A DNA stretch of 22,468 nucleotides from Clostridiaceae bacterium (GTDB lineage Bacteria; Bacillota_A; Clostridia; Acetivibrionales; Acetivibrionaceae): positions 1 to 22,468 of the forward strand of contig JAAZCB010000479.1 of the NCBI GenBank assembly GCA_012513545.1, given 5' to 3'. Shown piece after piece: positions 428 to 21,613 of the stretch (position 1 is its first letter; every line of letters starts with the position of its first letter). Made by a program: the position numbers and the translations under genes. Below the pieces are notes generated by a model, which searched no databases, was not told where the DNA came from, and saw only the letters and a list, made by a program, of their open reading frames with translations.

Positions 428-991
428 TTATTGTTTTTTCCAGTTGTCGTTGAAAAGATCTTTGTTTTTCTCAATAAATGCTTGTGAGATAGTTATATTG
501 CTCCCATCATCGGTTTTGTCTTCCTTCATGATCGGAATAGGGTTGCACCCGCCTCTTTGCTCCTCAATCATATCCATTTTAAACCTGTTGCCGCAGTTCT
601 GGCAAACAACTGCATCACCTTGCTGCTTGTAGTATGCCCTTGGGGAGCCGTTGCACACCTGGCAGGTATTGAATGCCGTTCTGATCGTACCGTCACTTGC
701 CTTGACAGCCATTATCTCCATATTTTTCTCACCGACCTTAATTGGATAAAAACTTGCTGTGTCGGTAATTTCGTTTTTTGATATGACTAGGTCACTACCA
801 CCTGAAGCAAAGTTATCACTGTCCTTTAAAGCAGCACTTTTACCATCACCTGACCCTACACCCTTTGCTATGAAAATAGTTGCGGTCAGCACCAGAATTA
901 CCGCGAGCATAACGAGAAGACTTTTCTTTGATTTACCTGGCTGTGGGGTTTTATGAGCAGTTATATTTGTTGATTGAACTTTTTTATCCAT
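428..991 (-). CDS. FtrD-like (DUF2318) membrane-anchored cysteine protein
   Basis: 187 aa. A basic N-terminus is followed by one membrane segment (about residues 24-42), then an extracytoplasmic domain. The DUF2318 / FtrD-like signature is plain: FNTCQVCNGSPRAYY (Cys110, Cys113), VVCQNCGNRF (Cys130, Cys133) and RGGCNPIPI (Cys149). These cysteines are thought to bind a metal or an Fe-S cluster. The family is associated with high-affinity iron uptake of the Ftr type and is often found beside HMA/TauE-SafE proteins. Here it lies just upstream, in transcription order, of an HMA-domain gene with an almost identical promoter, so a joint role in metal handling or redox at the membrane is a reasonable inference. 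The start is ATG with GAAGGTG 6 nt upstream. The family call is firm; the metal and substrate are unknown. Confidence 0.88.
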   Translation of the reverse strand: MDKKVQSTNITAHKTPQPGKSKKSLLVMLAVILVLTATIFIAKGVGSGDGKSAALKDSDNFASGGSDLVISKNEITDTASFYPIKVGEKNMEIMAVKASDGTIRTAFNTCQVCNGSPRAYYKQQGDAVVCQNCGNRFKMDMIEEQRGGCNPIPIMKEDKTDDGSNITISQAFIEKNKDLFNDNWKKQ

Positions 992-1097: not shown

Positions 1098-2093
1098 TCA
1101 TACTATGTAGACGATAGGTATATTCCCTAGATTCGCTGAAAGCTGTTCCCTGAGGAACTGCTCTCCATGAGCTCTGATTTGGTCTCTATAAGTATACTTT
1201 CCACGCCCTCTTCCCGTCATTAGTGTTTTATCATATAGTTCAACCGCTTTAGGAAATGCTTCATTATTAATGGCACGGTGAACAAAACTGTAGGTCATAA
1301 ATATAATCTCAATGAACAGCACTTTTTTAGCCTTGTCCGAAAGCTCATCTGCCAGTTGCCGGATTAATTCGGAGTATAACCTTTCCCATTCTTCCATCAA
1401 AACAACCGGTGCAATCAGGAGTCCAACCTTATACCCGGCCTCACACATTTGATTGATTGCTTTAATCCTTTTCTCTAGAGGTGATGTTCCGAATTCCGCT
1501 TTTTGAATTATTGTCCGGGGATTTGCACTCATTCTGAAGATGGTTCTTCCATTATGCTTTAAGGGCAGCAGGGACTCTATCATATCAAATTTAGTCGGAA
1601 AGGTAATGAATCCTTTTTGGTTGCTGCCAAACCTTTCTATTGTCCACTCAAGATTTTTTGTAATGGAATTTTCCAGAACCAGATCGCTGTTGCTTCCAAT
1701 CTCAAAGGTCAAATCCTCTGAAGCTTTATTAGCAGTCTTTATCAGCTTGTCCATCATTTGTTCACGGTTGACAAAAAGCCTCATGTACGAGCACTTGTTA
1801 TAATTACACACCAGATAGCAGTAAAGGCACATGGCACTGCACCCCGAGGAGGTATAGGGAACAAGAAAGTCTGAAACCTTATGGTTGGGCACATACTTAT
1901 GGGTTTTTCTGGTCCCGATTACAAGAAACCTTTTCATTTTCCCGAATTCAGAATTTGAACTCTTTTGCAGTTGTTCAATGTTATTGTGATTTTCAATGGG
2001 TATCCAGGTTTTGTCCCGGTATTTTTCTTTTAAATACCTTCCAAGTTCATACCCTGCAACAGATGGTTCATAAAATATTTTGTCCGGAAACAC
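1098..2093 (-). CDS. splB: Spore photoproduct lyase (radical SAM)
   Basis: 331 aa, near the usual length of about 340. A radical-SAM enzyme that reverses 5-thyminyl-5,6-dihydrothymine in germinating-spore DNA. The cluster motif CSAMCLYCYL gives C-x3-C-x2-C at Cys85, Cys89 and Cys92. The two tyrosines around the last cysteine (Tyr91, Tyr93), proposed as the radical-relay pair in the Bacillus enzyme, are present. The following stretch RLFVN and the region FEIGSNSDLV also match the family. By eye, Ser134 stands where the B. subtilis enzyme has its H-atom-donor Cys141. Extra cysteines occur at Cys96 and Cys101. The start is GTG, with GGAGGTG 5 nt upstream. No splA-like gene is adjacent. Family assignment is confident; the H-donor question is raised under findings. 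Confidence 0.92.
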   Translation of the reverse strand: MFPDKIFYEPSVAGYELGRYLKEKYRDKTWIPIENHNNIEQLQKSSNSEFGKMKRFLVIGTRKTHKYVPNHKVSDFLVPYTSSGCSAMCLYCYLVCNYNKCSYMRLFVNREQMMDKLIKTANKASEDLTFEIGSNSDLVLENSITKNLEWTIERFGSNQKGFITFPTKFDMIESLLPLKHNGRTIFRMSANPRTIIQKAEFGTSPLEKRIKAINQMCEAGYKVGLLIAPVVLMEEWERLYSELIRQLADELSDKAKKVLFIEIIFMTYSFVHRAINNEAFPKAVELYDKTLMTGRGRGKYTYRDQIRAHGEQFLREQLSANLGNIPIVYIV

Positions 2094-5260: not shown

Positions 5261-8200
5261 ATGCCAAAAAGAACTGATATTAACAAGATACTGATAATCG
5301 GCTCTGGACCTATAATTATAGGACAAGCCTGTGAATTTGACTATTCAGGTACACAAGCTTGCAAAGCACTTCGTAAGTTAGGCTATAAAATCGTACTGGT
5401 AAACTCAAATCCGGCAACTATCATGACTGACCCCTCAATGGCTGATGCTACCTATATAGAACCGTTAAATCTTGAAAGAATATCGCAGATTATAGCAACT
5501 GAACGCCCGGATGCTTTATTGCCCAATCTTGGGGGACAGTCAGCTCTCAACCTTTGCCTGGAGTTGTCAAAAGCAGGAGTTCTTGACAAATATGGTGTTA
5601 AGGTAATTGGAGTACAGGTAGATGCAATAGAGCGCGGTGAGGATAGAATTGCCTTTAAAGAAACTATGAACAAACTCGGCATTGAGATGCCACGAAGCAA
5701 ACCTGCCTACAGTTTGGAGGAAGCCGAGAAAATCGCTCTTGAGCTTGGTTTCCCGGTAGTTATCCGTCCGGCTTATACTATGGGAGGTACAGGCGGAGGT
5801 CTTGTGTATAATCTTGAAGAACTAAGGATTGTAGCTCAGCGTGGAATAACCTCAAGCCTTATAGGACAAATTCTGATTGAAGAATCTGTGCTTGGCTGGG
5901 AGGAACTTGAACTTGAAGTGGTTCGCGACTCCAAAAACCAGATGATTACTGTGTGCTTTATTGAAAATATTGACGCCATAGGCGTACACACAGGTGACTC
6001 CTTCTGTTCTGCACCTATGCTTACAATAAGTCCTGTTCTTCAACAACGTTTGCAAAAATACGCTTATGACATAGTTGAAGCAATACAGGTTATCGGAGGC
6101 ACTAACGTTCAGTTTGCCCATGACCCGAAGAGCGGACGTGTTGTAGTTATTGAAATAAATCCCCGTACTTCACGTTCATCAGCATTAGCCTCAAAAGCCA
6201 CAGGCTTTCCTATTGCATTAATATCCTCCATGCTTGCGGCCGGGCTTACACTTGACGAAATTCCCTACTGGCGTGACGGGTCACTTGACAAGTATACTCC
6301 TTCCGGGGATTATGTTGTTATTAAATTTGCACGCTGGGCTTTTGAAAAGTTCAAGGGTTCTGTCGATAAGCTCGGAACCCAGATGAGAGCTGTCGGTGAA
6401 GTTATGAGTATAGGAAAAAACTATAAAGAGGCTTTTCATAAGGCAATCCGTTCACTTGAAATCGGACGTTATGGCCTTGGCTTTGCAAAGGACTTCAATA
6501 GTCATTCGTTGGAAAAGCTTATGGAAATGCTTGCCGAACCCTCAAGTGAACGTCAATTCATAATGTATGAAGCTCTTAGAAAAGGTGCAGATATAAATGA
6601 GTTAAACCGTTTAACCCATATCAAGCACTGGTTTATTGAGCAGATGAAAGAGCTTGTCCTGCTTGAGGAAGAAATCCTCAAACACACAGGTGCCTTACTG
6701 CCTGACGATTTATTGATCAGAGCTAAAAAGGATGGTTTTGCCGACCGTTACCTGGCTAAGCTGTTAAACATCTCAGAGGATAAAATAAGGGCTCAGCGGG
6801 TTGCCCTTGGAGTGGTTGAAGGATGGGAACCCGTACCTGTAAGCGGTGTTGAGAACGCTGCCTATTATTTTTCAACCTACAATGCAAAGGACAAGACCGG
6901 CTCTAGTAATAAGCAGAAGGTTATGATACTTGGTGGTGGTCCTAACCGAATCGGTCAGGGCATAGAGTTTGACTACTGTTGCGTACATGCAGCCTTTGCC
7001 CTGCGGGACTTGGGTTATGAAACAATAATTGTAAACTGCAACCCTGAAACGGTTTCAACCGACTACGATACCTCGGACAAGTTATATTTTGAGCCTCTTA
7101 CTGTTGAAGATGTGCTCAGTATTTATAATAAGGAAAAGCCTCTAGGTGTAATTATCCAGTTCGGAGGTCAGACTCCTCTTAACATTGCACGCGAGCTTGA
7201 AAAAGCGGGGGTCAGGATTCTGGGTACTACCCCGGAAACAATTGACCTTGCAGAAGACCGTGATATGTTCCGTAAAATTATGGAAGAACTTGAGATACCA
7301 ATGCCAAAATCCGGCATGGCAAGCAATATAGATGATGCAATAAAAATAGCAAGCGAAATCGGGTATCCTCTGATGGTACGTCCGTCATATGTTTTGGGTG
7401 GACGCGGTATGGAAGTAATATATGATGAAGGCATGCTCATAAGGTATGTTAAAGCTGCAGTTGATGTGACCCCCGAAAGACCAATTTTGATAGACAAGTT
7501 CCTTGAAAATGCCATCGAGGCTGAAGCAGACGCAATAGCGGATGGAACTGATGCTTTTGTACCGGCCGTTATGGAACATATTGAGCTGGCAGGTATCCAT
7601 TCCGGGGACTCGGCTTGTGTTATACCTACAATCAATATTGCAGAAAAACACCTGCAAACCATTTATGAATATACTGCTAAAATCGCCAAGAAAATGAAGG
7701 TTGTTGGGCTTATGAATATGCAGTATGCTATTTCAGATGACCGTGTATATGTACTTGAAGCCAATCCACGTGCTTCAAGAACAGTTCCTCTTGTTTCAAA
7801 AATATGCAACATATCCATGGCACATATTGCAACAGAGATCGTAATGTCCAACCTGACAGGCAAGAAATCACCGGTTAACAGTTTAAGAACTAAAAAGCTT
7901 CCCCACTTTGGAGTAAAGGAAGCTGTTTTTCCATTCAGCATGTTCCATGAAGTTGACCCCGTTTTAGGGCCTGAAATGCGCTCCACTGGAGAAGTATTAG
8001 GAATTGCAAATTCTTTCGGACTCGCTTTTTACAAGGCTCAGGAGGCTATCCAGGCACCTCTGCCCACTTCAGGCTCAGTCCTTATAAGTGTGGCTGAGCA
8101 GGATAAACCGGCTATGCTTGAAGTTGCAAAGATGTTTATAGAGCTGGACTTTCAAATAAAAGCTACTGAAGGAACTCATAACTTCCTGTCCCGGAACGGC

Positions 8201-8488
8201 ATCAAATCGGAATTAATCAGGAAACTTCACGAGGGTCGTCCTAATATACTTGATGCTATAACAAACAAGGAAATTCAGCTGGTTGTAAATACGCCTATAG
8301 GCAAACAAAGCCAGGATGATGACTCTTATATTCGCAAAACAGCTATAAAATACAAAATACCGTATATTACAACACTTACAGCCGCAATGGCAAGTGTAAA
8401 AGGGATTAAGGCTTATAGAGAAACCCATTTGAAGGAAGACAAGGTTAAGTCCCTTCAGAACTATCACAATAATGTTGATATAAAATAA
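5261..8488 (+). CDS. carB: Carbamoyl-phosphate synthase large subunit
   Basis: 1075 aa, the normal full length. It makes carbamoyl phosphate from bicarbonate, ammonia and two ATP for pyrimidine and arginine synthesis. It shows the internal duplication of the family. The first ATP-grasp half has [20 protein letters not shown] (residues 14-33). The second begins near residue 550 with [15 protein letters not shown]. A C-terminal MGS-like allosteric domain starts near 940 and includes [11 protein letters not shown]. The start is ATG 5261, with AAGGAG 7 nt upstream. An earlier in-frame ATG at 5198 is rejected because it precedes the -10. The glutaminase subunit gene carA is not in the window. Instead the next gene, 48 bp on, is a PurF-like protein without glutaminase residues. 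CarB looks catalytically complete. Confidence 0.97.
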   Translation: [1075 protein letters not shown]

Positions 8489-8536
8489 GCATCTATGCAT
8501 TAATGAAATTTAAATAGATAATAGGAGTGTTTTATA

Positions 8537-9937
8537 ATGGGAGGACTTTTTGGTGTAGTTTCAAAAAACAGTTGTGTGACAGATTTGTATTTCGGCATCG
8601 ACTACCACTCACATCTTGGTACAAGCCGGGGTGGTATGGCTGTTTGGAATGGAAGCAGTTATACAAGATCCATACACAATATTCAGAATATTCAGTTTAG
8701 AGCAAAGTTTGAAGACGAGCTATCCGGCATGCAAGGTAATATGGGAATAGGCTGTATCAGCGATACAGAGCCTCAGCCGCTTACAGTATTTTCCCACCTT
8801 GGGCATTATGCCATAACTACTGTAGGGCGGATTAATAATATTCAGAATCTTGTCAGTAAGACTCTTTCAAGACATAATACCCACTTTTTGGAGATGAGCG
8901 GAGGAGTTATAAATCCGACAGAGGTAGTATCCAATTTAATAGATGAAGGAGAAACCTTTAAAGATGGTATAATACATGCGCAGGAATCAATAGAAGGATC
9001 ATGCACCATGCTGGTACTGACTCCTGAAGGTATATTTGCCGCAAGAGACCGTTTAGGAAGGACTCCTTTGATAGTAGGGGAAAAAGAAGGCTCTTACTGC
9101 GTGTCCTTTGAGTCCTGTGCATTCCCTAATCTGGGCTATCAAACAAAATATGAGCTCGGACCTGGAGAAATAATACTATTAACACATGACGGAATAGAAA
9201 AGTTATCGCCTCCCAGGGAAAAAATGAAGATATGTGCCTTCCTTTGGGTTTATTTTGGCTACCCCTCTTCATCCTATGAAGGAAAAAATGTTGAGGTAAT
9301 GCGCTATCGCAACGGTGCCGCTCTTGCCAAAAATGACAATGTTGATATAGACCTGGTTGCCGGTGTTCCTGATTCAGGTATCGCACATGCCATAGGCTAT
9401 TCAAATGAGTCTAAGGTTCCTTTCGGAAGGCCTTTTGTAAAATACACTCCAACCTGGTCGAGAAGCTTTATGCCTCAAGATCAGAGTATGCGAAGCCTTG
9501 TCGCGAAGATGAAGCTTATACCGATCACTGATCTGGTTAAAGGAAAAAAGCTTTTATTTTGTGACGACTCAATTGTCAGGGGTACTCAAATGCGCGAAAC
9601 TACTGAACTGCTTTACAACTGCGATGCAAAAGAAGTTCATATAAGACCCGCATGTCCTCCCTTACTTTACGGCTGCAAATACCTGAATTTTTCAAGGTCA
9701 AATTCCGAGATGGATCTGGTTGCGAGACAGGCCATCAGGGATCTAGAAGGTAAAGAACCGTCATCCCTAAATGAATATAGTAACTCCGATACGGAAAAGT
9801 ACAGTTGTATGGTTGACTGGATTAGAAAACGTTTGAACTTTACAACACTAAAATATCAAAAATTAAATGATATGCTGGGTGCAATTGATTTGCCCTGTGA
9901 AAATGTATGCACGTATTGTTGGGACGGTAAGGAATAA
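8537..9937 (+). CDS. PurF-like phosphoribosyltransferase, glutaminase-dead
   Basis: 466 aa, the length of amidophosphoribosyltransferase. PurF moves glutamine nitrogen onto PRPP in the first step of purine synthesis. The C-terminal transferase half looks intact: GVPDSG (276-281), MKLIP (325-329) and the PRPP loop KLLFCDDSIVRGT (338-350). Four cysteines align by eye with the Fe-S ligands of B. subtilis PurF: Cys233, Cys380, Cys458 and Cys461. The N-terminal Ntn fold is recognisable but its chemistry is gone. The nucleophile Cys after Met is Gly (MGGLFGV). The arginine of the RYST-type motif is missing (GIGCISDTEPQ, 70-80). NG has become VG (TTVGR, 94-98). The Asp of DSEV is Pro127. The start ATG has AGGAG 9 nt upstream. 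It is probably co-transcribed with carB. It may be ammonia-dependent, regulatory, or act on another amine; the true purF is presumably elsewhere. Confidence 0.85.
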   Translation: MGGLFGVVSKNSCVTDLYFGIDYHSHLGTSRGGMAVWNGSSYTRSIHNIQNIQFRAKFEDELSGMQGNMGIGCISDTEPQPLTVFSHLGHYAITTVGRINNIQNLVSKTLSRHNTHFLEMSGGVINPTEVVSNLIDEGETFKDGIIHAQESIEGSCTMLVLTPEGIFAARDRLGRTPLIVGEKEGSYCVSFESCAFPNLGYQTKYELGPGEIILLTHDGIEKLSPPREKMKICAFLWVYFGYPSSSYEGKNVEVMRYRNGAALAKNDNVDIDLVAGVPDSGIAHAIGYSNESKVPFGRPFVKYTPTWSRSFMPQDQSMRSLVAKMKLIPITDLVKGKKLLFCDDSIVRGTQMRETTELLYNCDAKEVHIRPACPPLLYGCKYLNFSRSNSEMDLVARQAIRDLEGKEPSSLNEYSNSDTEKYSCMVDWIRKRLNFTTLKYQKLNDMLGAIDLPCENVCTYCWDGKE

Positions 9938-9967: not shown

Positions 9968-10004
9968 AAAAAAGCCCGGAAGGTTATATTCCCGGGCTTT
10001 TTTT
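9968..10004 (+). terminator. Terminator of the carB / PurF-like unit
   Basis: Strong stem AAAAAAGCCCGG (9968-9979) / CCGGGCTTTTTT (9992-10003) ending in a T run, 30 nt after the stop codon. A-rich and T-rich flanks make it potentially bidirectional, though the opposing gene ends only 100 nt away. Confidence 0.9.
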
Positions 10005-15750: not shown

Positions 15751-17229
15751 TTATTCGTTGTTTTCGTAAGCTGGAAAGCACAAACGGAAAGTTGAGCCTT
15801 CAGGCCCGGTTTCAACTAATTCAACTGTTCCTCCCTGCTTATAGATAAGCTTTTTGATGAGTGCCAGCCCCAATCCGGCACCGCCGCTCTGTCTCGAACG
15901 GTTTTTATCCACTGTGTAAAAGGGCTCAAAAATTCTGGATTTAGCCTCCTCCGGCATGCCGATGCCTGTATCACTGATTTCAATAAATACTTTTGAGCTG
16001 ACTGCATAACTTTTTATTCGAATGCTCCCCTGTGTCTTATTGTATTTGATGGCGTTATCCAAAAGATTAACGAGAATAATGACCATATTTTCTCTATCAG
16101 CTTTAATAAACACCTCTTTGAGCTCTGTTTCCAGCTTTATGCCGAACTTATCCATTCTTCCTTTTAAGCTGCTGCATACCTTGAGAATAATCTTGCCAAC
16201 ATCAATTTTCTCCATCATATATTCGAAGTCATACTTTTCCAGGGCAGACAATTGCAAAACCTTATCTACCATCTCATACAACCTACCTATTTCCTGATTG
16301 ATATTTTCCCTCGCAGTTTTTATCAGTTCTACATCATCAGGATACATTTCCAGAAGGTCGATATATGCCTTGACAGATGTCAACGGTGTTTTGAATTCAT
16401 GTGTGACATTTCCAATGAACTGCTTCTGCTGTTTTTCCAGCCTAGACAGCTTATCGACTGCAAGTGTAAGCTTTTGCTGCTCGGCTTGCATATCTTCGAT
16501 GGTTTTTACGATCTGCCTGCTCATGTCATAAATCCCTTCTCCCAGCTTCCCCAACTCATCTCTGCGGTGAAGAACCTCTACGTTGTATTGTCCGGTGCGG
16601 ATACGGTCAGTCATGTTCTTTAACATCAAAATCCCATTTGCAAAAGAATTGAAATAGAAATATCCAAAAATAAAACTGATAATAAAAACAGCTGCTCCAA
16701 TATAAATAAAGAGCCTCCTGATATAATTGTAGAATTTAAGCTCTCCCGCCAGCGAATAATAGAGCTGTATAACCCCTACCTGTTTGCCTCCTGCAGTTAA
16801 CGGTGCAAAGTAATAAAGGGAGTCTTGCTCCACCTGATATGCTGTTTTGTTTTGCAGAGCAAAAGAAAGGGTTTTTTCAATCTTGCTGGATTTACTTTCA
16901 ACCGCAGATTGTCCGATTTTCTTACCGTTTATATCATACAACACATTTGATTGCCCGGTGACCATGCTCATCTGTCTTGCCAGTTCATTTCCCTTAGAGA
17001 CTAAAAATATTTCGGGTATAGTAAAGGATTCACTAAGACTCAACTGGACGAAATACAGATTCGCCGTCCTGGTCTGCTGAGCTAAAAATGCTTCATATTG
17101 CGCCTGTTGATCCTTTTTTATTCCATCCAATACCAGGATGCTTAATATTGTCACCGTGAGAAGCAAAAGTGCCGCCAGGAAAACACTGAATTTAATTTTT
17201 ATGCTTATTATCATATCAGCCGCCACCAT
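15751..17229 (-). CDS. Sensor histidine kinase, HAMP type
   Basis: 492 aa membrane kinase partner of the response regulator just upstream. Two transmembrane segments (about 11-35 and 171-195) enclose an extracytoplasmic sensor of some 135 residues with no recognised fold. HAMP-like residues 196-245 and a coiled coil follow. The HisKA motif is NVTHEFKTPLTS with the phospho-acceptor His277. ATP-binding boxes are NLLDNAIKYN (N392), DTGIGMP (420-426), FEPFYTVDKNR and GGAGLGLAL (449-457). All catalytic residues seem present. The start ATG lies 4 nt after the regulator stop, with an AAGG ribosome site overlapping that stop. There is no PAS domain, unlike classical PhoR. The signal is unknown. Confidence 0.93.
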   Translation of the reverse strand: MVAADMIISIKIKFSVFLAALLLLTVTILSILVLDGIKKDQQAQYEAFLAQQTRTANLYFVQLSLSESFTIPEIFLVSKGNELARQMSMVTGQSNVLYDINGKKIGQSAVESKSSKIEKTLSFALQNKTAYQVEQDSLYYFAPLTAGGKQVGVIQLYYSLAGELKFYNYIRRLFIYIGAAVFIISFIFGYFYFNSFANGILMLKNMTDRIRTGQYNVEVLHRRDELGKLGEGIYDMSRQIVKTIEDMQAEQQKLTLAVDKLSRLEKQQKQFIGNVTHEFKTPLTSVKAYIDLLEMYPDDVELIKTARENINQEIGRLYEMVDKVLQLSALEKYDFEYMMEKIDVGKIILKVCSSLKGRMDKFGIKLETELKEVFIKADRENMVIILVNLLDNAIKYNKTQGSIRIKSYAVSSKVFIEISDTGIGMPEEAKSRIFEPFYTVDKNRSRQSGGAGLGLALIKKLIYKQGGTVELVETGPEGSTFRLCFPAYENNE

Positions 17230-18176: not shown

Positions 18177-20018
18177 TTACACTAGTGGACGCAGATGTAT
18201 TTTCTTCAGTTTATGTTGATGCTTGATTAGCTTTTCTTTATTGAAAGGTTTCCCATGAGACGGATACACTTTTTTATAATCAAGGCTAATCATCTTCATC
18301 CATGAGGCTTCATAGTCTTTCAAATTTTCTATCCAAATGATGATGTTATTCCTGCCTGGTATACCATTCATGGCTGCATCACCACAAAAAAGCACCCCAT
18401 TCTCAAACAATAAGTCCATGGAATCCTTTGTATGACCAGGCAGCTCAACAATCCTGGCTGAAAGAATTTTCTCTATTTGAGGCTTGGTCTCTTTTGTTAC
18501 GACCATATATCGTTCCGGGGAATCAACCGGTTCGAAGCGATGCTCACCCTTACCGAATAGTTTCATCATCTGGCAAAAGCCATATGCTAACATACTACTG
18601 CATCCACCCTCGAATGAATTTTGTCCAACTTTTAATCTTTCAATAGATACCGGATTAAGGATTACTTTCGCTTTAGTCTTGTCCAACAGCTGATTTAGGA
18701 ACCCAACATGATCATCATGGGCATGTGTAATAAAAACATATGTAATATCCTCTAGTGCTATCCTCCTATTTGTCAACTCTTCCTCGAATTTCTTATAATG
18801 CTCTTTGTAACCTGTATCGATAAGCAAATACCCCTCTTCCATTTCTATCAGAAAAATATTACTGATCCTGTTTCCAATGTTTATCGTTCTTTCTTCAATG
18901 GGTTTCCTCATCTTATAGGCGCTTTCTATCCTTTTAGCCATTTGTATGTTCACCTTTTTAACTTCGTCAATGTAAGAAGGAATATCTCCGAAGCTTCCGA
19001 TTGGCTGGCCAAGAAGAATGGTTTCCAATTGGTTACGAATTAAATGAGCATTATTCAATCTTTTATCGTCTTTTATCTTGCCTGTCAACCAAAGCGTATC
19101 TACCAAGCTATCTAATACTTCTTCAGGTATAAATGGCTTATCCTGATAAGTAAATTCCGCTTTCCTCAATCCACCTTGCCACTCCGGATTGGCTAAAGAC
19201 TTTTTTATAATATCTTTGGCATGTCCTACAGAACATTTGTGTCCTTGACATACATTGCAATATTCCGGCCCTCTGCAGATGTTTTCAAGATCTTCTTTTA
19301 TATGCTGATAGTAATCATGAAGTATTTTGGATTTTGCTTTGAATTCAGATTGAATACCCATCTTCCTATCATGAAATAACCTTCTTACCATAAAAAATAC
19401 AAGCAATACCAAAACAACTATGAAGGGCACTATAAAAACAGGATTTAAATATTTTTCCGGCATAGTTTGCGACAACTTCTGGATACCAAAAAACATAAAT
19501 ATTGAAGCTGCCATAAGCTTAATGCCTAATTCAGGAATCTTGTCACCTAATTTTTTGCCAACAAAAATACCTAACGCTCCTGTAACAATCATACCCGTTA
19601 CTGTTCCCACCAAAACCATGAATGGATATGAGGAATCTGCTGCCAAGGTGATTGCTGTTAGCTGCGTTTTATCCCCGAGTTCCCCTAAAAAGAAGGCTAA
19701 AGCGACAGTTGCGACAGGGCCAAATTGAATTTTAGGTTCATCTTCATCTTCTTCTTGCTCAGACTTCAGTGTCCATATAGCAAATCCTACAAACGCAGCC
19801 CCTGCCACCATTTGAATTGTGCTAATCGGAAGCAATTGAGAAAGATAGCTTCCTAAAAGCACTGCCAGACCATGATTCAGAAAAGCTCCAATTCCGATTC
19901 CAAATAGAACTTTCCTCACAGGGAAACGTGTAGCAAAAGCCATTGCCAGAATCTGAGTCTTATCCCCCATTTCCGCTATAAAAATCAACATAAATGCCTC
20001 TAGTATCTCTTGAATCAT
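18177..20018 (-). CDS. GDT1/UPF0016 cation exporter fused to MBL-fold domain
   Basis: 613 aa from the ATG at 20018, which has AAGGAG 7 nt upstream; an ATG two codons earlier is only 1 nt from it. Residues 1-215 are a complete GDT1/TMEM165 (MneA-type) exporter with both signatures, EMGDKTQ (16-22) and ELGDKTQ (113-119), in a two-times-three-helix layout. Members export Mn2+ or Ca2+. A soluble linker follows with a cysteine set, Cys248, Cys254, Cys257 and Cys262 (CNVCQGHKC), that may bind metal. Residues about 380-600 are a metallo-beta-lactamase fold with a full ligand set: His432, His434, Asp436, His437 (THAHDDH), His529 (PGHTKDS), Asp547 (CGDAAMNG) and His588. A Mn riboswitch upstream supports manganese export. 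The hydrolase substrate is unknown. No frameshift is visible at the joint. Confidence 0.88.
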   Translation of the reverse strand: MIQEILEAFMLIFIAEMGDKTQILAMAFATRFPVRKVLFGIGIGAFLNHGLAVLLGSYLSQLLPISTIQMVAGAAFVGFAIWTLKSEQEEDEDEPKIQFGPVATVALAFFLGELGDKTQLTAITLAADSSYPFMVLVGTVTGMIVTGALGIFVGKKLGDKIPELGIKLMAASIFMFFGIQKLSQTMPEKYLNPVFIVPFIVVLVLLVFFMVRRLFHDRKMGIQSEFKAKSKILHDYYQHIKEDLENICRGPEYCNVCQGHKCSVGHAKDIIKKSLANPEWQGGLRKAEFTYQDKPFIPEEVLDSLVDTLWLTGKIKDDKRLNNAHLIRNQLETILLGQPIGSFGDIPSYIDEVKKVNIQMAKRIESAYKMRKPIEERTINIGNRISNIFLIEMEEGYLLIDTGYKEHYKKFEEELTNRRIALEDITYVFITHAHDDHVGFLNQLLDKTKAKVILNPVSIERLKVGQNSFEGGCSSMLAYGFCQMMKLFGKGEHRFEPVDSPERYMVVTKETKPQIEKILSARIVELPGHTKDSMDLLFENGVLFCGDAAMNGIPGRNNIIIWIENLKDYEASWMKMISLDYKKVYPSHGKPFNKEKLIKHQHKLKKIHLRPLV

Positions 20019-20326
20019 ATCCATGCTCCTTTTATTTTTCGTAACAATCTAATTGAACAGCCCGGTCAACTTCCTCTAACAAATTATATATGTTCCTAAC
20101 CTATATGGTTTATGTTTGGAAAGAGCTGATGTTTTCAGCAAAAATGCCGTTATTCTGCAAAAAATATCAGAACCCTTAATATATGTTACAAACCATAAAT
20201 TGTATGGCAGAATATTGTGGCGCTCCTTCAATAAGCATCCATGGCTTATTGAAGGAGCCAATTTCATTAAGCTTTGGAATATATTATTATCATGTCCTGA
20301 ATGCATGCAACCATCCACTGTCAATT
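20019..20326 (-). other. Long leader between Mn riboswitch and exporter gene
   Basis: About 300 nt of AT-rich leader with no supported ORF. It holds a perfect 15-bp inverted repeat, GCTCCTTCAATAAGC (20222-20236) / (20244-20258), with a 7-nt loop and no T run. A GCTGA/TCAGC small hairpin lies near 20124-20139. Two similar 20-odd-bp blocks both read ATATATGTT..C.AACC..ATA on the plus strand, around 20084-20104 and 20180-20198. No second promoter could be assigned with confidence. Confidence 0.5.
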
Positions 20327-21297: not shown

Positions 21298-21375
21298 TTA
21301 AATTTGGAGACTTATTTTGATATAAGTTTTCTACCCTAATTACATATTTATGCTGTTGATAATTTAATAAAAATT

Positions 21376-21500
21376 TGCGCTGAATCCAGAAATGGAGCGG
21401 GAGAACCAAATAATGGGGTGAATCCGGTAAATCCGGTAGGGTTAAGCTCTTTCGATCCGAACCCGACAGCTAATCTCGTAAGCGTTGGAAGAGAAGGTGA
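21376..21500 (+). ncRNA. ydaO/yuaA cyclic di-AMP riboswitch
   Basis: Conserved pieces of the class appear in order: GCTGAATCC, a GGGAGAACCA-like block, GGGGTGAATCCGG, GGTAGGG, CTCTTTCGATCCGAACCCG, ACAGCTAATCTCGTAAGCG and GGAAGAGAAGG. Class members bind two c-di-AMP and usually switch genes off by termination. The 3' strand GAGAAG (21491-21496) is complementary to CTTCTC (21562-21567) within the terminator, which would give an antiterminator in the free RNA. Ligand binding should therefore allow termination and lower dapB-like expression. Boundaries are approximate. Confidence 0.88.
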
Positions 21501-21580: not shown

Positions 21581-21613
21581 AGTTGGTAAAAAATCGTATC
21601 GGAGGTATTGAAA

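Follow-up and report, generated by a model that had tools for sequence, protein, structure and literature searches.

In a 22,468-nucleotide stretch of DNA from a Clostridiaceae bacterium (GenBank assembly GCA_012513545.1, contig JAAZCB010000479.1, positions 1 to 22,468 of the forward strand; here called the window), a gene for a carbamoyl-phosphate synthase large chain, carB2, is followed by a gene for a PurF-like protein predicted to have lost its glutaminase activity. We refer to this protein and its relatives as F2. Comparison of F2 and CarB2 across genomes suggests that they are ammonia-fed entries to purine and pyrimidine synthesis, in which F2 can replace the canonical amidophosphoribosyltransferase PurF and CarB2 acts without CarA. 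We give this reading a probability of roughly two in three. Glutamine dependence is the standard teaching for the committed step of purine synthesis, and anaerobes often meet high ammonium. A family that carries the label "amidophosphoribosyltransferase" seems to carry out that step without a glutaminase.

F2 has lost the glutaminase residues of PurF and retains the PRPP site

The F2 protein of the window scored 188 bits against the PurF profile TIGR01134 (cut-off, 350), and its best matches among solved structures were PurFs, with E values of about 1e-45 to 1e-44 over residues 3-392 or 11-392. A search for relatives gave at least 7998 candidates, all of which matched; the 120 matches listed were 70-100% identical. 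The source labels these relatives "amidophosphoribosyltransferase," and the matches beyond them may include canonical PurFs. We aligned 87 F2 proteins (the window plus 86 of 94 fetched loci, 8 having been lost at the selection of open reading frames [ORFs]) with 11 canonical PurFs. A fuller set held 95 recovered F2 proteins, with those of L082 and L023 cut short.

Cys1 had a counterpart in none of the 87 F2 proteins, in which the residue after Met was Gly or Ser (Gly in 86 and Ser in 9 of the fuller set of 95). The Arg of the HRG motif was Leu in all 87, and the RYxT loop (Arg, Tyr, and Thr) fell in a gap in every one. The Asn of the NG pair was likewise absent throughout (Val in 70, Ile in 14, Thr in 2, and Leu in 1), and the Asp of the glutaminase site was retained in only 2 of 87, being otherwise Pro (35), Gln (17), Ser (16), Ala (9), or another residue. 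Window F2 has none of these four residues (Cys1, Arg, Asn, and Asp). An earlier note on the window had described a PurF paralog that had lost all key glutaminase residues; the changes at Cys1, Arg, Asn, and Asp were read correctly, but the Gly of the NG pair is kept (84 of 87). Two alternative nucleophiles were considered. Cys13 of window F2 is not a general one, because 14 of the 87 proteins have Ala there; the Ser at position 2 (9 of 95) was also noted, and the Arg and Asn are missing there too.

The same note's intact phosphoribosyl pyrophosphate (PRPP) site and apparent iron-sulfur (Fe-S) cysteines are upheld by the alignment. The PRPP loop DDSIVRGT is retained across the 87 F2 proteins (first Asp to Glu in 4, Ile to Leu in 1), as are Lys302, Arg309, Arg319, and Lys326 and the F2 residues Cys233, Cys380, Cys458, and Cys461 (the last two in 86 of 87, with one row ending early). 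VRGT is followed by Gln in 87/87 F2 proteins versus Thr in 11/11 canonical PurFs, and the flexible loop, KNRYxGRTF in PurF, is uniformly KYTPTWxRSF-like in F2. The motif DYHSHLG sits in the glutaminase pocket, which is expected to be nonworking. Mean entropy of the dead domain was 1.31 in the 87 F2 proteins and 1.27 in the 11 PurFs, the two sets not being matched.

F2 formed one clade apart from PurF in a quick tree (support 100, starred); the tree program warned that a long branch, the Lokiarchaeal PurF, joins the F2 branch. Because its members share a residue pattern (YHSHLG in 95/95 loci and Gly or Ser at residue 2), F2 is, judged by its sequences, a separate and coherent family. We found no published work on the bacterial family in the open-access PMC literature, a scope that leaves out most subscription journals. 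Outside the Clostridia, F2 and a canonical PurF lie tail to tail in a Lokiarchaeota metagenome-assembled genome (MAG; L019, 10001-12950), and F2 lies 44 nt ahead of a 633-amino-acid protein in two Bacteroidota loci (L020, 10001-13350; L021, 979-4328). The L020 protein scores 112 bits, under the PurF cut-off, yet it begins with HECG as PurF does.

PurF is often absent from genomes that hold F2

In a first sample of 15 genomes (from the 24 first loci), canonical PurF scored over the cut-off in 14; the exception, a Bacteroidales MAG, carries a 633-amino-acid PurF with an HECG start beside F2. The wider survey covered 243 genomes of Clostridia, the class of L003 (Pseudobacteroides), with 90% completeness requested (values not displayed). 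F2 was found in 71 of them, and canonical PurF was absent from 22 of these 71. All but one of the 22 (G130) have purD, whose enzyme acts on the PurF product. Among purD-holding genomes, PurF was missing in 21/70 with F2 versus 1/143 without F2 at an E value of ≤1e-65 (P = 1e-10 by Fisher's test, uncorrected for kinship). The sole F2-negative case, G086, has a PurF split between two contigs, in pieces that match model positions 1-123 and 304-432 at an E value of ≤0.01. Where purD is kept, the pattern expected of PurF replacement is thus found for the F2 family, the single control being a split PurF. Two F2-negative genomes (G048 and G076) have PurF and lack purD.

Single PurF-less cases may be assembly gaps, as with G186, which lies among near-identical PurF-holding genomes. 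We reject gaps as the general cause in view of the control rate, a single-contig genome, and a clade of four genomes. The single-contig genome, G226, has 1,671,491 bases (listed genome size, 1.7 Mb), lacks PurF, and carries F2 in a pur operon; the four related genomes (G068, G114, G156, and G173) all lack PurF. A divergent PurF hidden by a strict cut-off, as the 112 bits of the Bacteroidota PurF might suggest, was sought in the 22 genomes and not found: at an E value of ≤0.01, the only pieces of the PurF transferase part were F2 itself and one match each in G130 and G155 of less than 18 bits. On the F2 tree, the absence of PurF requires 15 changes, 8 of them forced by starred branches, so that it arose repeatedly.

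The survey also bears on the roles that the earlier note had offered for the PurF-like protein, namely, an ammonia-using transferase, a PRPP or nucleotide sensor for CarB, or a new pathway step. A catalytically dead sensor regulating PurF and/or CarB would fit the loss of the glutaminase together with the kept PRPP loop. It would also fit the three genomes in which F2 directly adjoins canonical purF (G181 and G096, both with other pur genes nearby, and G184, where no other pur genes were found) and the two Bacteroidota loci described above. A mere sensor or regulator is nevertheless disfavored, because 22 of the 71 F2 genomes have no other PurF-type protein and 21 of these keep purD, a situation with one counterpart in 143 controls; F2 also occupies the purF slot of pur operons. 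We consider this role very improbable, and the same counts favor the ammonia-using transferase.

F2 occupies the purF position in pur operons of relatives

We fetched neighborhoods for 70 of the 71 F2 genomes (all but G024, a partial hit) and verified pur gene names on representatives. At 19 of the 70 loci, pur genes lie within 1.5 kb of F2 on the same strand; at the other 51, no pur gene does. The complete order is purE-(purC)-F2-purM-purN-purO-purH-purD-purL. Seven of the 19 pur-linked loci come from genomes without PurF, and 12 come from genomes that also have the canonical enzyme. An Rfam search of 15 of the 19 found a ZTP riboswitch 5' of purE in six (L039, L042, L045, L086, L088, and L091) and a purine riboswitch 5' of purE in one (L092). 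At L083, a ZTP riboswitch lies on the operon strand, not ahead of F2, and no riboswitch was found in the other seven loci searched. F2 of L040 comes after a pyr operon. Given the replacement pattern, the pur-operon position, the riboswitches, and the single-contig genome in which F2 is the only PurF-type protein, F2 most likely makes phosphoribosylamine (PRA) from PRPP and ammonia.

CarB2 and its association with F2

The CarB of the window scored 1346.6 bits against TIGR01369 (cut-off, 1027) and has the full domain set. The earlier note had called this gene an orphan, and it does stand without an adjoining carA: we found no CarA among the window proteins scanned, a set that omits some small ORFs. 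At least two CarBs exceeded the cut-off in 13 of the 15 genomes of the first sample. With the window CarB as the query, the 243 genomes yielded 45 relatives at 65-90% identity, the next matches being at ≤48%; at most three candidates were scored per genome. In a tree, 40 CarB2 proteins (window included) formed one clade against 23 CarB1 proteins. CarB2 keeps 260 of 338 near-invariant CarB1 columns, and the commonest residue differs at 65 of 338.

carA was over the cut-off in 38 of the 45 CarB2 genomes and absent (at an E value of ≤1e-40) in 7, of which 5 have pyrB (aspartate carbamoyltransferase) over the cut-off. One carA-less genome, G253, has CarB2 only and is a single contig of 3,604,547 bases. 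A second carB with carA, which the earlier note had named as speaking against its proposal, is indeed present in the three genomes closest to the window (G001-G003), but the seven carA-less genomes do not share it.

The direct order carB2-F2 on the same strand and within 500 bp was seen in the window and in L001, L002, L003, G147, and G182. The L002 genome has two separate carB-F2 pairs in one MAG (G002, C49 and C67). In G090, G206, and G216 the two genes are 2-3 kb apart and oppositely oriented. Tight carB2-F2 linkage is found only among close kin, and in the window's lineage the genes form one apparent operon whose cotranscription seems likely. Across the 243 genomes, 29 hold both families, 42 hold only F2, and 16 hold only CarB2. 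F2 is therefore present in 29/45 genomes with CarB2 versus 42/198 without it (P = 7e-8, uncorrected for kinship). Three genomes (G057, G147, and G233, all fragmented) have F2 and CarB2 and lack both PurF and carA. At L002, about 5 kb from the carB2-F2 pair, a purH-like gene has a ZTP riboswitch (16376-16458, minus strand) on its 5' side.

The earlier note's shared task for the pair is borne out only in part: the families co-occur above expectation, but the side-by-side arrangement is confined to the window and five other genomes. F2 and CarB2 could lack a common role altogether, with the adjacency in the window being a local matter. That arrangement of so few genomes, the position of most CarB2 genes apart from F2 and from any recurrent neighbor, and the genomes holding one family without the other all agree with such an explanation. 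It appears unlikely, given that both are old, conserved clades whose co-occurrence exceeds expectation, and given the three fragmented genomes that hold both without PurF and carA.

Proposed role of F2 and CarB2

We propose that F2 would act as a PRA synthase without the glutaminase half-reaction, joining PRPP with ammonia, either free or supplied by some donor, and would so replace PurF at the first step of purine synthesis. CarB2 would act as a carbamoyl-phosphate synthase large chain on ammonia without CarA. If the nearest kin are a guide, carB2 and F2 in the window's lineage would work beside glutamine-using enzymes. The proposal builds on the replacement pattern and on ammonia activity reported for both kinds of enzyme. 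In E. coli PurF, the ammonia-dependent reaction survives the loss of Cys1, according to a passage of PMC3261824. For the E. coli large subunit, formation of carbamyl phosphate from NH3 in vivo is stated in the title of a 1987 paper cited in PMC6245113.

The nearest published idea that we found is the crenarchaeal PurF' (Brown et al. 2011, PMC3261824), for which a passage of that paper raises, as one untested possibility, the role of an ammonia-dependent PRPP aminotransferase. As described in the passage, PurF' is, like F2, a PurF paralog without Cys1 near purine genes. Each crenarchaeon is said to have one PurF and one PurF', whereas F2 stands alone in 22 genomes, and many PurF' proteins have Ala or Val at the site where F2 has Gly or Ser.

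Canonical PurF (TIGR01134; B. subtilis 1gph/1ao0) resembles F2 in an alignment over most of its length, the PRPP loop, the four cysteine positions, and the pur-operon slot in relatives. F2 differs from it in its low profile score, the missing Cys1, Arg, Asn, and RYxT loop, the Asp kept in 2 of 87, the flexible loop, and a separate clade on a long branch. CarB2 resembles CarB (TIGR01369; E. coli 1bxr) in its full domain set, its score, and most near-invariant columns, and differs in its own clade, its divergent columns, and the lack of an adjoining CarA. Mitochondrial carbamoyl-phosphate synthetase I (CPS I; 5dot) would share the ammonia substrate with CarB2. CPS I has an extra N-terminal part of about 400 residues, an inactive glutaminase-like domain; CarB2 aligns to 5dot residues 407-1470 only, and this fused part was not found in it.

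Several points weigh against the ammonia-fed reading. PurF is retained in 49 of the 71 F2 genomes. The genomes nearest to the window retain PurF as well as carAB, so F2 may have another activity there. The one representative PurL scanned from an F2-type pur operon retains its glutaminase part, so the purine pathway is not glutamine free overall. The dead domain appears about as conserved as that of PurF, beyond what a relic needs, and the altered flexible loop and post-PRPP-loop residue would fit another amine as well as ammonia. Most PurF-less and carA-less genomes are fragmented assemblies, and the survey counts are uncorrected for kinship. The absence of carA has no matched control, that of CarB1 in the seven carA-less genomes rests on at most three scored candidates each, and carbamate kinase may be another source of carbamoyl phosphate.

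The conserved pocket also suggests a different supply of nitrogen, in which F2 would make PRA with nitrogen from a separate glutaminase or another amine donor in a reworked DYHSHLG pocket. In line with this idea, F2 proteins uniformly carry residues peculiar to the family in the flexible loop and in the former glutamine pocket, where YHSHLG occurs at every locus. Within two ORFs of F2, however, only pur genes and carB2 recur widely, other clusters reaching at most 5 loci (of 87 loci or fewer); this count covers only adjoining genes, and a partner may be encoded elsewhere. We think such a donor rather improbable and prefer ammonia. More tentatively, with odds a little short of even, PurF and CarAB, which are unrelated glutamine amidotransferases, may each have been rebuilt without a working glutaminase, frequently within a single bacterium and in the window within one apparent operon, into an ammonia module that took the place of the textbook enzymes in several lineages. 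The DYHSHLG pocket might then have a new duty, for example, binding an ammonia source or a nitrogen-status signal.

If F2 does act as proposed, this step should be corrected in the annotation and metabolic models of many anaerobes, and bacteria would offer a way to test the question raised in 2011 about archaeal PurF'. The F2 enzyme would also be expected to escape inhibitors that are glutamine analogues.

Layout of the window

The features of the carB2-F2 locus are listed in Table 1. For CarB, a longer form starting at ATG 5198 was dropped in favor of ATG 5261 on the basis of the ribosome site (AAGGAG upstream of the ATG) and homology; the product has 1075 amino acids, and the coordinates run through the stop codon at 8488. 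F2 has 466 amino acids and its own ribosome site and begins 48 nt 3' of the end of carB. No riboswitch was found at the gathering score 5' of carB2 in the window or six kin loci.

Table 1. Features of the carB2-F2 locus, in window coordinates
Feature	Position	Strand	Evidence
carB2, carbamoyl-phosphate synthase large chain; separate clade, no carA adjoining	5261..8488	+	Domains, profile cut-off, tree, ribosome site
F2, glutaminase-dead PurF-like protein; PRPP loop and four Fe-S cysteines retained	8537..9937	+	Profile, structure matches, alignment, tree
Dead N-terminal nucleophile (Ntn) glutaminase part of F2, residues 1-230 (boundary set by us)	8537..9226	+	Alignment
Invariant DYHSHLG of F2, residues 22-28	8600..8620	+	Alignment
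PRPP loop DDSIVRGTQ of F2, residues 343-351	9563..9589	+	Alignment
Terminator-like hairpin 3' of F2	9968..10003		Hairpin search lists minus strand; T run on plus strand read by eye

Three features elsewhere in the window were also recorded. A spore-photoproduct-lyase-like protein (1101-2093, minus strand), below its NCBIfam cut-off, adjoins an FtrD-like membrane protein (431-991, minus strand). In the ORF at 18180-20024 (minus strand), a GDT1 cation/proton antiporter part and a metallo-beta-lactamase-fold part are fused. A cyclic di-AMP (c-di-AMP) riboswitch at 21368-21500 (plus strand; 105.6 bits) lies 5' of a dapB-like ORF that begins at 21608 and reaches the window end.

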